Source: Sphingobium sp. KCTC 72723 (GTDB taxonomy: Bacteria > Pseudomonadota > Alphaproteobacteria > Sphingomonadales > Sphingomonadaceae). Taken from it: a DNA stretch of 64,000 bases. Of the stretch, positions 24,312-60,077 are shown piece after piece. The notes beneath the pieces are model-generated. The model did not search any database and had not been told where the DNA came from. It worked only from the letters and a program-made list of their open reading frames with translations. Each line of letters begins with the position of its first letter. The stretch's first letter is position 1. The stretch is taken from contig NZ_CP060388.1 of assembly GCF_014280435.1 (NCBI RefSeq), positions 1,550,001 to 1,614,000 of the forward strand. Reading direction: 5' to 3'. Both the position numbers and the translations under genes were made by a program.

Positions 24312-24401
24312 CGTCATGCTGAACTTGTTTCAGCATCCATCAAGCCTCATGAAGCCCTGCCCAATCTGGAGAAATGGACTCTGAAACCAGTTCAGGGTGA
24401 C
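24312..24401. repeat. palindromic repeat R1, copy 1
   Basis: About 90 bases bounded by CGTCATGCTGAACTTGTTTC at the left and GTTCAGGGTGAC at the right. Contains two palindromes, ATGCTGAA...TTTCAGCAT (24316-24336) and CTGAAACCAGTTCAG (24381-24395). A near-identical architecture recurs at 49590-49678 and a collapsed form at 30061-30099. Confidence 0.85.
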
Positions 24402-49589: not shown

Positions 49590-49678
49590 CGTCATGCTGA
49601 ACTTGTTTCAGCATCCATCGTGCCCCACAAACAGCGGCTTATTGGGCGAAATGGACCCTGAAACAAGTTCAGGGTGAC
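49590..49678. repeat. palindromic repeat R1, copy 3
   Basis: About 89 bases with the same ends as the copy at 24312 (CGTCATGCTGAACTTGTTTC left, GTTCAGGGTGAC right) and the second palindrome CCTGAAACAAGTTCAGG; the internal 35 bases differ. Located between the convergent yghU and ligA genes. Confidence 0.87.
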
Positions 49679-49706
49679 GTTGGGGGGATGTTGGCCATAT
49701 ACGCGC

Positions 49707-56214: not shown

Positions 56215-58557
56215 TCAGTCCTGCGTCAGGAAGTCAGGCAGGCCGCCGGTCGGGCCGTCATCATTGCCGCCTTCGCTGCGTTCACGACGGGGACCACGAT
56301 CGCCGCTGCCGCCATCGCGACGCGGGCCGCGACCACGGTCGCCACCGCCGCCGCCTTCACGACGCGGGCCACGGCCTTCGCCGCCGCCACCGTCACGGCG
56401 CGGACCACGATCGCTGCGCGGTTCGCGTGCTTCGCGGGCAGGACGGGTGTCCTCCAGCTCTGCGCCGGTTTCCTGATCAACAACGCGCATCGACAGGCGC
56501 ACCTTGCCGCGCGGATCGATTTCCAGAACCTTGACCTTCACGTCCTGGCCTTCCGATACGACATCGGTGGGCTTTTCGACGCGCTCATTCTTCATTTCGG
56601 AGACGTGGACGAGGCCGTCCTTGCCACCCATGAAGTTCACGAAAGCGCCGAAATCGACGATGTTGACGACCTTGCCGTCATAGATCTTGCCGACTTCCGC
56701 TTCCTGGGTGATGCCCAGGATCCACTTGCGGGCCGCTTCGATCTGCGCCGGGTCGGACGAGCTGATCTTGATCAGGCCTTCGTCGTCAATGTCGACCTTC
56801 GCGCCGGTTTCGGCGACGATTTCGCGGATGACCTTGCCACCGGTTCCGATGACTTCGCGGATCTTCGACTTGTCGATCTGCAAGGTTTCGATGCGCGGGG
56901 CGTGAGCCGACAGTTCGGTGCGGGTCGAGGACAGCGACTTGGCCATTTCGCCAAGGATGTGCGCGCGGCCTTCCTTCGCTTGCGTCAGCGCCGCTTCAAA
57001 GATTTCGCGCGTGATGCCCGCAATCTTGATGTCCATCTGCATCGTGGTGATGCCCAGTTCGGTGCCTGCGACCTTGAAGTCCATGTCGCCCAGATGATCT
57101 TCGTCACCCAATATGTCCGACAGGACGGCAAAGTCCTTGCCTTCCAAAATCAGGCCCATGGCGATGCCGGACACGGGGCGCTTCAACGGCACACCGGCGT
57201 CCATCATCGAAAGCGAACCGCCGCAGACGGTCGCCATCGAGGAGGAACCGTTGGACTCGGTGATGTCCGAAAGAACGCGGATCGTGTAGGGGAATTCGTC
57301 CTTGCTGGGCAGCACGGGGTGCAGCGCACGCCATGCCAGCTTGCCATGACCCACTTCACGACGACCCGGCGCGCCGAAGCGACCGACTTCACCGACCGAA
57401 TAGGGCGGGAAGTTATAGTGCAGCATGAAGTTTTCATAATGCAGGCCGGTCAGGCCGTCGATCATCTGCTCGGCGTCCTTGGTGCCCAGCGTGGTGGTGC
57501 AGATCGACTGCGTTTCACCGCGCGTGAACAGGGCCGAACCATGGGTGCGGGGCAGGAAGCCGACCATCGCTTCGATCGGGCGGATCTGCGTGGTGGTGCG
57601 ACCGTCGATGCGCTTGCCGTCCTTGAGGATGGCACCGCGCACGATTTCCGCTTCCAGCTTCTTGGTCAGCTTGATGCCGGCCATCACGGTCTGGGCGTCC
57701 AGGCCGTCCGCAATGAACTTCGCCTTCGCCTTGGCGCGGGCTTCGTTCAGCGCGTTGGAACGGGCCGACTTGTCGGTCAGCTTGTAGGCGGCAGCGATGT
57801 CCTTGCCGATCAGCTTCTTGAGCTTCGCCTTCAGGTCGCCCAGATCATCGCTCTTGGCCATGTCCCAGGGATCCTTGGCGGCTTTTTCCGCCAGCGCGAT
57901 GATCGCATCGACAATCTTCTTGCTCGCGTCATGCGCGAACAGGACGGCGCCCAGCATGATTTCTTCCGACAGCTCCTTGGCTTCGGATTCGACCATCATC
58001 ACCGCGTCGTAAGTGGCGGCAACGACCAGGTCGAGTTCGCCGGTCTTCACTTCGTCCAGCGACGGGTTGAGCTGATATTCGCCATCCTTGTAACCGACGC
58101 GCGCAGCGCCGATCGGACCCATGAACGGCACGCCCGACAGGGTCAGCGCGGCCGATGCGGCGATCATCGCCACCATGTCCGGCTCGCTTTCGCCATCGAA
58201 CGACAGCACCTGAGCGATGACGTTGATTTCGTTGTAGAAACCTTCGGGGAACAGCGGGCGGAGCGGACGGTCGATCAGGCGGGAAACCAGCGTTTCCTTT
58301 TCGGTCGCGCCGCGTTCACGCTTGAAGAAGCCACCGGGGATGCGACCGGCAGCGGAATATTTTTCCTGATAGTGAACGGTCAGCGGGAAGAAATCCTGGC
58401 CTTCCTTCACGCTCTTGGCAGCGGTCACGGCGCACAGCACCACGGTTTCGCCATAGGTTGCCAGCACGGCGGCGTCAGCCTGACGCGCGATACGGCCGGT
58501 TTCGAGGGTCAGCGTCTTGCCGGCCAGCTCGATAGATACTTTCTTGACGTCGAACAT
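56215..58557 (-). CDS. pnp: polyribonucleotide nucleotidyltransferase (PNPase)
   Basis: A 780-residue 3'-5' exoribonuclease: two RNase PH domains (about 10-225 and 310-540; [20 protein letters not shown] and [17 protein letters not shown] in the active one), a KH domain (about 555-615, [15 protein letters not shown]) and an S1 domain (about 620-690). The C-terminal 75 residues are unusually rich in Arg and Gly with repeated RGPRR-type units, then end [10 protein letters not shown]; such tails add RNA or RNase E binding. Downstream of rpsO as in most bacteria, with its own terminator. Confidence 0.97.
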
Positions 58558-58769: not shown

Positions 58770-59039
58770 TTACTTGCGCAGGCCCAGCTTACCGATCAGG
58801 TCGACGTAGCGCGCCTGATCCTTCTTCTTGAGATAGTCCAGCAGCGAACGACGCTTGTTGACCATCATCAGCAGACCACGGCGGCTATGATTGTCCTTGT
58901 GGTGACCCTTGAAATGCTCGGTCAGGTTGACAATCCGCTCGGTCAGGATCGAAACCTGAACTTCCGGCGAACCCGTGTCACCCTCAGCGCGGGCATATTC
59001 CTTGATCAGCGCTTCCTTGCGCTCGGCAGTAATCGTCAT
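58770..59039 (-). CDS. rpsO: 30S ribosomal protein S15
   Basis: An 89-residue S15, of normal length, with the family segments [36 protein letters not shown] and [16 protein letters not shown]. Binds 16S rRNA early in small-subunit assembly. Its ATG follows the truB stop with no intervening base (TAGATG), so translation is likely coupled. Confidence 0.98.
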
Positions 59040-60077
59040 CTAATCGTCTTCCCTCGACATCAGGTTGAAACCGCGCACCACGACGATTTGATCGTCATCC
59101 GACCGGACCAGAGCGACGGGAATATCTTCCAGCATCGCCAGGTACAGGCCAGTGGTGGCAGCGACCCCGGTCAGCACCTTCCCCTGGCGGAGAGCGGCAG
59201 CCTGATCGGGGGAGACGGGGAGAGCCGGGATGTCGTCCAGCCCCGCCGTCAGCGGCAGCATAAGCCCACCGATGTCGCCGCCCTTAGCAGCCTGGTCCAA
59301 TTTGTCCAGCGTAATTGCGGTTCCCAGCGTGAACGGCCCCGCCTTCACTCGCCGCAACATGGTGACATGGCCGACCGTGCCGAGCGCCAGCGCTATGTCA
59401 CGCGCAAGGCTGCGGATATAGGTGCCTTTGGAGACATGGGCAGTCAGGGTGATGAACGAAATCCTCTCCCCTTGGGGGAGAGGATAGCAAGGCTCGGCAG
59501 CGTGCTGCCTAGCCGCGCTTGGAGAGGGGGGCGACGCGCCCTCCCCCTCTCCAAGCTGCGCTAACCCGCCTTGCGGGCAAGCTGCGCTATCCTCTCCCCC
59601 ATGGGGCGAGGAGATATGCAGCCCATGCACCGTCACCGACCGCAGCTTCATCTCGACCTCCTCCCCCTTACGGGCGAGGTCGTAGGCGCGCTGGCCGTCG
59701 ATCAGGATCGCGCTATAGGCGGGCGGTGCCTGTTCGATTCCGCCAGTGAAGCGTGGGAGGATAGCCTCGACATCCGCCAGCGTAGGGCGATGATCGCTTT
59801 CCGCAATCACCGCGCCTTCCAGATCGAGCGTGTCAGTCTGCGCCCCGAAGGCAATGGTGAAATCGTAAATCTTGTCGCTGTCGAGCATCCGCCCGGCCAG
59901 CTTGGTCGCTTCGCCAATCGCGATCGGCAGCACGCCGGTCGCCAGCGGATCGAGCGTGCCGCCATGGCCGACCTTCCACTTGCCCGCGCCACTTTGCCTC
60001 AGCGCGCGCTTGACCGCGCTGACTGCCTGGGTCGAGCCAAGGCCGTGCGGTTTGTCGAGAATGATCCAGCCATGCAT
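59040..60077 (-). CDS. truB: tRNA pseudouridine-55 synthase TruB with repeat-encoded insertion
   Basis: A 345-residue TruB. Catalytic Asp in GHGGTLDPLATGVLPIA (about residue 46), then DFTIAFGAQTDTLD and the C-terminal SKGTYIRSLARDIALALG. Between VHGLHI (about residue 153) and ISFITLTAHVSKGTY (about 206) there are roughly 50 extra residues rich in Gly, Pro, Ser and Glu (for example GLAQLGEGEGASPPSPSA) where TruB normally has a loop of only a few residues. The extra part is encoded exactly by the palindromic element at 59461-59615, which keeps the frame open. The insert falls in a surface loop, so the enzyme may still be active. Position between rbfA and rpsO is conventional. Confidence 0.95.
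   Translation of the reverse strand: MHGWIILDKPHGLGSTQAVSAVKRALRQSGAGKWKVGHGGTLDPLATGVLPIAIGEATKLAGRMLDSDKIYDFTIAFGAQTDTLDLEGAVIAESDHRPTLADVEAILPRFTGGIEQAPPAYSAILIDGQRAYDLARKGEEVEMKLRSVTVHGLHISSPHGGEDSAACPQGGLAQLGEGEGASPPSPSAARQHAAEPCYPLPQGERISFITLTAHVSKGTYIRSLARDIALALGTVGHVTMLRRVKAGPFTLGTAITLDKLDQAAKGGDIGGLMLPLTAGLDDIPALPVSPDQAAALRQGKVLTGVAATTGLYLAMLEDIPVALVRSDDDQIVVVRGFNLMSREDD
59461..59615. repeat. multi-palindrome element inside truB
   Basis: Five stems in 155 bases: ATCCTCTCCC...GAGAGGAT (59461-59485), GGCTCGGCAG...AGCC (59491-59514), a perfect 14-base stem GCTTGGAGAGGGGG with its complement (59517-59556), CCCGC-CTT-GCGGG (59565-59577), and ATCCTCTCCCC...GAGGAGAT (59589-59615). The two outer stems resemble each other and mark the ends. 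The style resembles R2 and the recN-bamD element elsewhere in the window. Confidence 0.9.

Follow-up and report, generated by a model that had tools for sequence, protein, structure and literature searches.

How does a palindromic repeat come to lie within the reading frame of a tRNA-modifying enzyme, and why does one loop of this enzyme bear such repeats in one relative after another? The question is raised by truB of Sphingobium sp. KCTC 72723, where a block of inverted repeats is spanned by the gene. In the following, the window means the whole stretch of DNA that was analysed (64,000 nucleotides). The features concerned are these:

59040-60077, minus strand: truB, encoding tRNA pseudouridine(55) synthase (345 aa), the host gene, identified by family profile matches and a structure model
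58770-59039, minus strand: a gene of 89 aa that we take to be rpsO, with its start codon directly following the truB stop codon
59461-59615, minus strand: element A, a composite palindrome of 155 nt in the truB frame, recognised by its repeats, folds, other copies and covariation
59461-59485, no strand: outer hairpin nearer the truB 3' end, with perfect 11-nt arms and a 3-nt loop
59491-59514, no strand: inner hairpin, present in the DNA fold and with many compensatory changes in the alignment of copies
59517-59556, no strand: central long hairpin, seen as an inverted repeat, in the DNA fold and in the alignment of copies
59558-59585, no strand: third inner hairpin, present in the DNA fold
59589-59612, no strand: second outer hairpin, an imperfect copy of the first, an arm of which can also pair with the first

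The first-pass annotation had described the block as five inverted repeats bounded by two similar outer stems, a description borne out by the repeat search and by the RNA and DNA folds. The arms at 59461-59471 and 59475-59485 are perfectly complementary, and 59589-59612 is an 83% identical copy of 59461-59484. The outer 40-nt arms (59462-59501 and 59573-59612) are 80% complementary to each other; in the DNA fold, an outer stem pairing 59462-59488 with 59586-59612 encloses three inner hairpins. Element A can thus be drawn as five hairpins or, alternatively, as a cloverleaf of one long outer stem and three inner hairpins. The structure of 59461-59615 exceeds chance, with z scores of -8.82 for the truB-sense RNA and -8.30 for the DNA, and in both cases none of 200 dinucleotide shuffles was equally stable. 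Matches of the block to Rfam microRNAs (MIR1858 and others) were all far below the gathering scores and were set aside as chance matches to hairpins. Over 59451-59622, the truB frame is open, as had been claimed, and every one of the other five frames contains a stop. Element A adds about 51 residues to TruB, located by position at about residues 156-206, the proposal having been 50 or so extra residues at 155-205.

The product of truB matched TIGR00431 with 215.8 bits (cut-off 151.45) as well as the Pfam families TruB_N and TruB_C_2. An AlphaFold model, built from an input of 56 TruB sequences, showed an intact TruB fold with a mean pLDDT of 86.3, and its first-ranked match among solved structures was E. 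coli TruB (1k8w), which has five residues between the two aligned parts at the equivalent place. Residues 161-182 and 184-198 of the model, lying between strands 146-157 and 208-215, had pLDDT below 50 and presumably form a flexible loop, as which the insert would be translated. Judging from sequence, the insert sits in the turn between two TruB strands, with the frame kept and the remaining enzyme conserved. This loop may represent a permissive safe harbour, where inserts would be harmless. Among seven truB genes bearing A (21 pairs), divergence of the insert (0.79-0.93) was similar to that of the rest of the gene (0.78-0.94). Since both diverge at similar rates, the A insert is not clearly free of constraint; the similarity argues neither for nor against a role of the loop. 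As for the surroundings, plasmid records gave one match to the window, at 58013-58506, within an ORF that is presumably pnp, and the nearest named relative by TruB, among the best 80 of 579 confirmed loci, was S. psychrophilum AR-3-1 (89%).

The block had been proposed to be an inserted copy of a dispersed palindromic element, and the search with 59461-59615 supported this. Besides the truB copy, the window genome contains another at C1:609768-609931 that is near full-length (73% identical), as well as three clear partial copies. With the limit set at E<=1e-3, a match to A was present in 44 of the 61 Sphingobium genomes; at most 13 candidates were scored per genome, and the truB copy itself is among the matches in some genomes. 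The two outcomes named as speaking against an insertion, namely a long loop with unrelated DNA in all close relatives and absence of the element from the rest of the genome, were not found. Fourteen near full-length copies (5 in truB, 9 elsewhere) have one common architecture, and their alignment contains compensatory changes on both sides at 14 of 38 consensus pairs. These comparisons show the block in the window to be a copy of the dispersed palindromic element A, the stems of which are conserved among copies. We examined 33 A loci, 11 of them being truB by place and 22 lying elsewhere. No convincing gene frame across A was found among the 21 non-truB loci judged, the 22nd (L287) not being judgeable. 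One of them, L285, was considered as a second coding home of A and rejected; its sole spanning frame scored 0.05 and 0.0 and is antisense-like in our judgement.

Related strains carry unrelated repeats of such kind in the same TruB loop, which therefore looks to be a recurrent landing site for small palindromic repeats across Sphingomonadaceae. Labels were assigned from protein motifs written by hand, with some then corrected manually; by these labels, the palindromic repeats that occupy the loop in different species fall into ten groups, or about seven kinds at coarsest. Groups C and E have the ends CGTCAT...TGACG in common, in the manner of CGTC-tagged REPs, which group H resembles by peptide and BLAST, as it does C and E; groups D and F are mutually alike, and A, B, G, I and J are separate. 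No end sequences common to A, B, D/F and C/E were found.

The fairest sample is represented by 61 Sphingobium genomes (the window genome and 60 others). Their truB loci contained A in 13 cases, F and G in five each, B and E in four each, C and D in two each and another insert in one, while two were unlabelled (L045 and L062) and 23 had no recognised insert; relatives with a short loop, which had been looked for, thus do occur. The lack of a recognised insert in 23 of 61 truB genes speaks against a required role. Only eight of the 80 named loci (the best 80 of 579 confirmed) were without insert; among 88 loci of a family draw, 34 had none, 11 were of P type and three were unlabelled. Both the best 80 and the top matches L176-L203 favour long loops, and the 60 loci L204-L263 were hand-picked, mostly one per genus, with L224 and L226 being again Sphingobium. 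The insert had been held to be unusual for a sphingomonad, a view which was not supported: unrelated repeats fill the same loop in many species, and the available text of PMC3733652 records truB-borne REPs in 'E. lithoralis' and 'S. alaskensis'.

The folds gave a measure independent of labels. Loop length was counted between the end of an R-x-[VI]-x-[VI] motif and the KGTY motif. Distinct loops 40 or more residues long numbered 113, and 90 of them reached z<=-3, compared with none of the 113 truB segments of matching length that directly follow them; for shorter loops, the numbers were 10 of 77 and 0 of 77. A distinct long loop with a GRPDPYDP-like motif and no strong hairpin was present at L200, L202, L204-L206, L209, L214, L216, L219, L220 and L222, and at L191, L195, L210, L215 and L225 a repeat-like stretch was located upstream within a loop bearing such a motif. 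A phylum draw supplied 117 genomes from outside the family, of which 116 matched TruB. In each of these 116, the match ran unbroken across the loop, which by hand reading was never expanded by more than six residues.

Several loci deserve separate mention. In L062 (genome G005), truB contains a B insert, and the halves of the gene around it are in different frames; this might be an assembly error, since the assembly has 200 contigs and 7% contamination. L213 (G214) bears an I-like insert, with an altered SKGTYIR motif and no recognisable preceding strand. These two cases represent either limits to the tolerance of inserts or assembly errors. In L045 (G020), the end of a contig falls inside the A insert of truB, and L122, from a metagenome-assembled genome, contains a gap and a repeated piece of conserved flank in the truB loop; repeats in this loop may disturb assemblies.

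Groups other than A were dispersed as well. Copies outside truB were detected in 12 of 12 genomes searched for B, 8 of 9 for C, at least 9 of 10 for E, 5 of 6 for F and 4 of 6 for G, the genomes having mostly been chosen because their truB bears the repeat. The matches of G in G004 and G283 comprised the truB copy only; among the matches listed, no place outside truB was present for C in G003 and F in G053, and no match was listed for E in G247. Groups D, I and J were represented in the DNA flanking truB in other species. In the 80 named loci (the best 80 of 579 confirmed), the DNA up to 2.5 kb from truB in both directions contained 58 repeat places, none of which lay in a coding-like frame (85 places were noted, of which 27 in truB just before the loop were judged to be probable artefacts of the L122 loop and dropped). 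The frames of B, E and F copies were checked at 59 loci, four of which, at contig ends, were left out. Among the 55 rows assessed, 11 were truB, two were E-type repeats in frame elsewhere, and one, L346, passed the coding score; some rows, including two of the 11 for truB, represent a place already counted on the opposite strand. The E-type repeats in frame (CGTC...GACG) reside in murD (L315, genome G021) and valS (L318, G113), both genes being assigned by Pfam. L346 passed with 0.08 and 0.07 but was rejected as a coding home, because its frame is antisense-like in our judgement.

In the window itself, two C-type palindromic repeats are present at 24312-24401 and 49590-49679 (CGTCATGCTGAACTTGTTTCAG...), neither of which is spanned by a long frame, and the window genome gave 53 match rows for the C-type repeat family. 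Paired CTCCCCTTCAGGGGAG-like palindromes occur on C1 of the same genome (G000), for example at 857616-857708 and 4195547-4195639; at one mismatch or less, 37 forward sites were counted, compared to 17 for the reversed control.

How often the occupant changes was estimated from trees built with the loop removed. A tree of 207 TruB proteins of the family, made by a quick method with weaker branch support, required at least 90 label changes (mean of shuffled labels 121.9), and a DNA tree of 75 truB genes, nearly all from Sphingobium, required 36 (shuffled mean 42.4). Well-supported branches of the latter force at least six changes for B and F each, five for G and A each, four for E, three for C and two for D; gain and loss are not distinguished in any of these counts, to which gene exchange between species could contribute. 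A was clustered on the 75-gene tree (0 of 500 shuffles were as low), and both A and B were clustered on the 207-protein tree, so that part of their spread reflects descent and not new insertion.

Close pairs of genes, compared at the level of their sequences, indicate recent turnover of the occupant. The non-loop parts of L036, containing B, and L063, without insert, show 98.3% identity (834 nt); for L033 (B) and L099 (A), identity is 94.8% over 840 nt. Between L036 and L063, the original loop tip of about 35 nt is gone, B is present in its stead, and a few bases just behind also differ. This replacement deviates from a simple insertion, in which an empty site and an element would be seen, and transposition proper is not demonstrated by it; no target-site duplication was visible by eye in close pairs with tip replacement. 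As the tip was replaced and not cleanly added, several routes come into consideration, namely transposition with later trimming, template switching and recombination. Shortening was observed too: along L099, L046 and L056, presumably in this order, A is shortened by 75 and then by 54 nt, both times in frame and at repeated G-rich motifs.

We consider it quite probable that what is observed here is tolerance, palindromes repeatedly entering, persisting, eroding and being replaced in one loop of TruB; of the explanations weighed, this one is best supported. Small palindromes would arrive by whichever route moves each family. Most of those landing inside genes would be lost, while those which keep the frame in this TruB turn would survive, later to erode by in-frame deletion and to be replaced by another. 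The frequent occupation of truB would then most likely follow from the tolerance of a turn in a stable fold, combined with palindrome-rich genomes, and older palindromes might perhaps help by attracting new ones or recombining with them.

Taken further, such help would turn the surface loop into a dedicated or self-renewing dock across the family, in which palindromes attract or swap one another and repeat DNA constantly turns over a segment of the protein, possibly because a hairpin or a flexible loop is useful; this we regard as unlikely. Another proposal, which likewise appears improbable to us, is that the site is recognised as DNA by a transposase, a RAYT or the recombination machinery, steering different families there. 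In its favour are the occupation of a single loop in a single gene by many groups with forced changes, the tip replaced between the near-identical flanks of L036 and L063, and the lack of coding-like frames at the 58 other repeat places around truB. However, the starts of inserts scatter by about 0-6 codons past the end of the H-x-L strand (most loops, by eye), A, B, D/F and C/E have no end sequences in common, PF01797 is without match in the window genome, and a murD and a valS likewise contain in-frame E-type repeats.

Alternatively, selection might act on the RNA: strong hairpins towards the 3' end of the truB mRNA, supplied by any palindrome, would be kept to tune translation or decay of downstream rpsO/pnp. 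The adjoining truB stop and rpsO start would suit this explanation, as would the supply of hairpins at one place by different repeat groups. Yet many species lack an insert (a recognised one is missing from 23 of 61 Sphingobium loci, and the genomes of the phylum draw outside the family show no loop expansion), and some inserts have little hairpin, L038, L117 and L215 encoding a repeat-like peptide with z of only -0.56, -1.52 and -1.75, respectively; selection of an RNA hairpin is therefore rather improbable. Finally, that no insertion took place and an ordinary low-complexity loop became GC-rich and hairpin-prone by slippage or composition is very improbable, despite the high G+C content and the long loops without strong hairpins (P type) in some genera, given that copies of like architecture occur elsewhere and bear compensatory changes, and given the adjacent truB control (0 of 113 at z<=-3).

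One loop of a housekeeping enzyme here supplies numerous natural replicates of repeats being inserted, replaced and eroded. Near-identical pairs, of which one gene has the insert and the other lacks it, would allow testing how repeat DNA enters proteins, and the same system could serve for testing whether hairpins in the message affect the next gene and how much of a foreign loop the enzyme tolerates.

As a host of repeats, truB is not new, because four other bacteria are already in print: the available text of Di Nocera, De Gregorio and Rocco 2013 (PMC3733652) names S. maltophilia, 'E. lithoralis' and S. alaskensis as having REPs within truB and recalls RPE-1 in truB of R. conorii. There, the consequence of repeats in truB is called unclear, and flexible linkers or loops are named as places where insertions may be neutral. 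In-gene REPs of one functional category are reported in this text at different sites, except for recB of two Xanthomonas, and its available part describes no common loop in truB for CGTC-tagged REPs. The TruB loop bears on the recurrence of truB as a REP host, which the same part of PMC3733652 calls unclear. CGTC-tagged REPs themselves are characterized there as palindromic, common in alphaproteobacteria and sometimes located inside genes, with a CGTC (or TGTC/CCTC) end tag, a stem of 8-9 bp, a loop of 4-5 nt and a length of 20-40 bp. Groups C and E, beginning with CGTCAT and ending with TGACG, are like them; A differs from this description (PMC3733652, available text) in its 11-nt outer arms, 3-nt loop and 155 nt. 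The CGTC tag is absent from A, the window copy of which has ATCCTCTCCCC at one end and GGGGCGAGGA at the other. Absent as well, when the ends are read directly, is the GTAG end tag of RAYT-moved REPs, CTAG motifs being internal only. A RAYT as the mover of A was considered and rejected; the Y1 tyrosine transposase family PF01797 had no match in the window genome (G000) and was found in 10 of 21 genomes searched.

Bacterial MITEs and REPINs are short, multi-copy elements with terminal inverted repeats and no gene of their own. Element A is like a MITE in its terminal inverted repeats, its multiple copies, which among those examined lie mostly between genes, and its lack of an own gene; it is unlike one in its multi-hairpin cloverleaf. 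In close pairs, no target-site duplication was visible by eye. In the literature searched, which included few subscription papers, we found neither an element like A nor a single TruB loop used by many unrelated families across Sphingomonadaceae. Rickettsia is the main known source of protein-coding palindromes, and its palindromic elements are similar in size to element A. A resembles these elements in being a palindrome in frame inside an ORF, as indicated by the open frame and the TruB families matched. The case of Sphingomonadaceae is unlike that of Rickettsia in that one loop of one gene accommodates many unrelated groups across the family.
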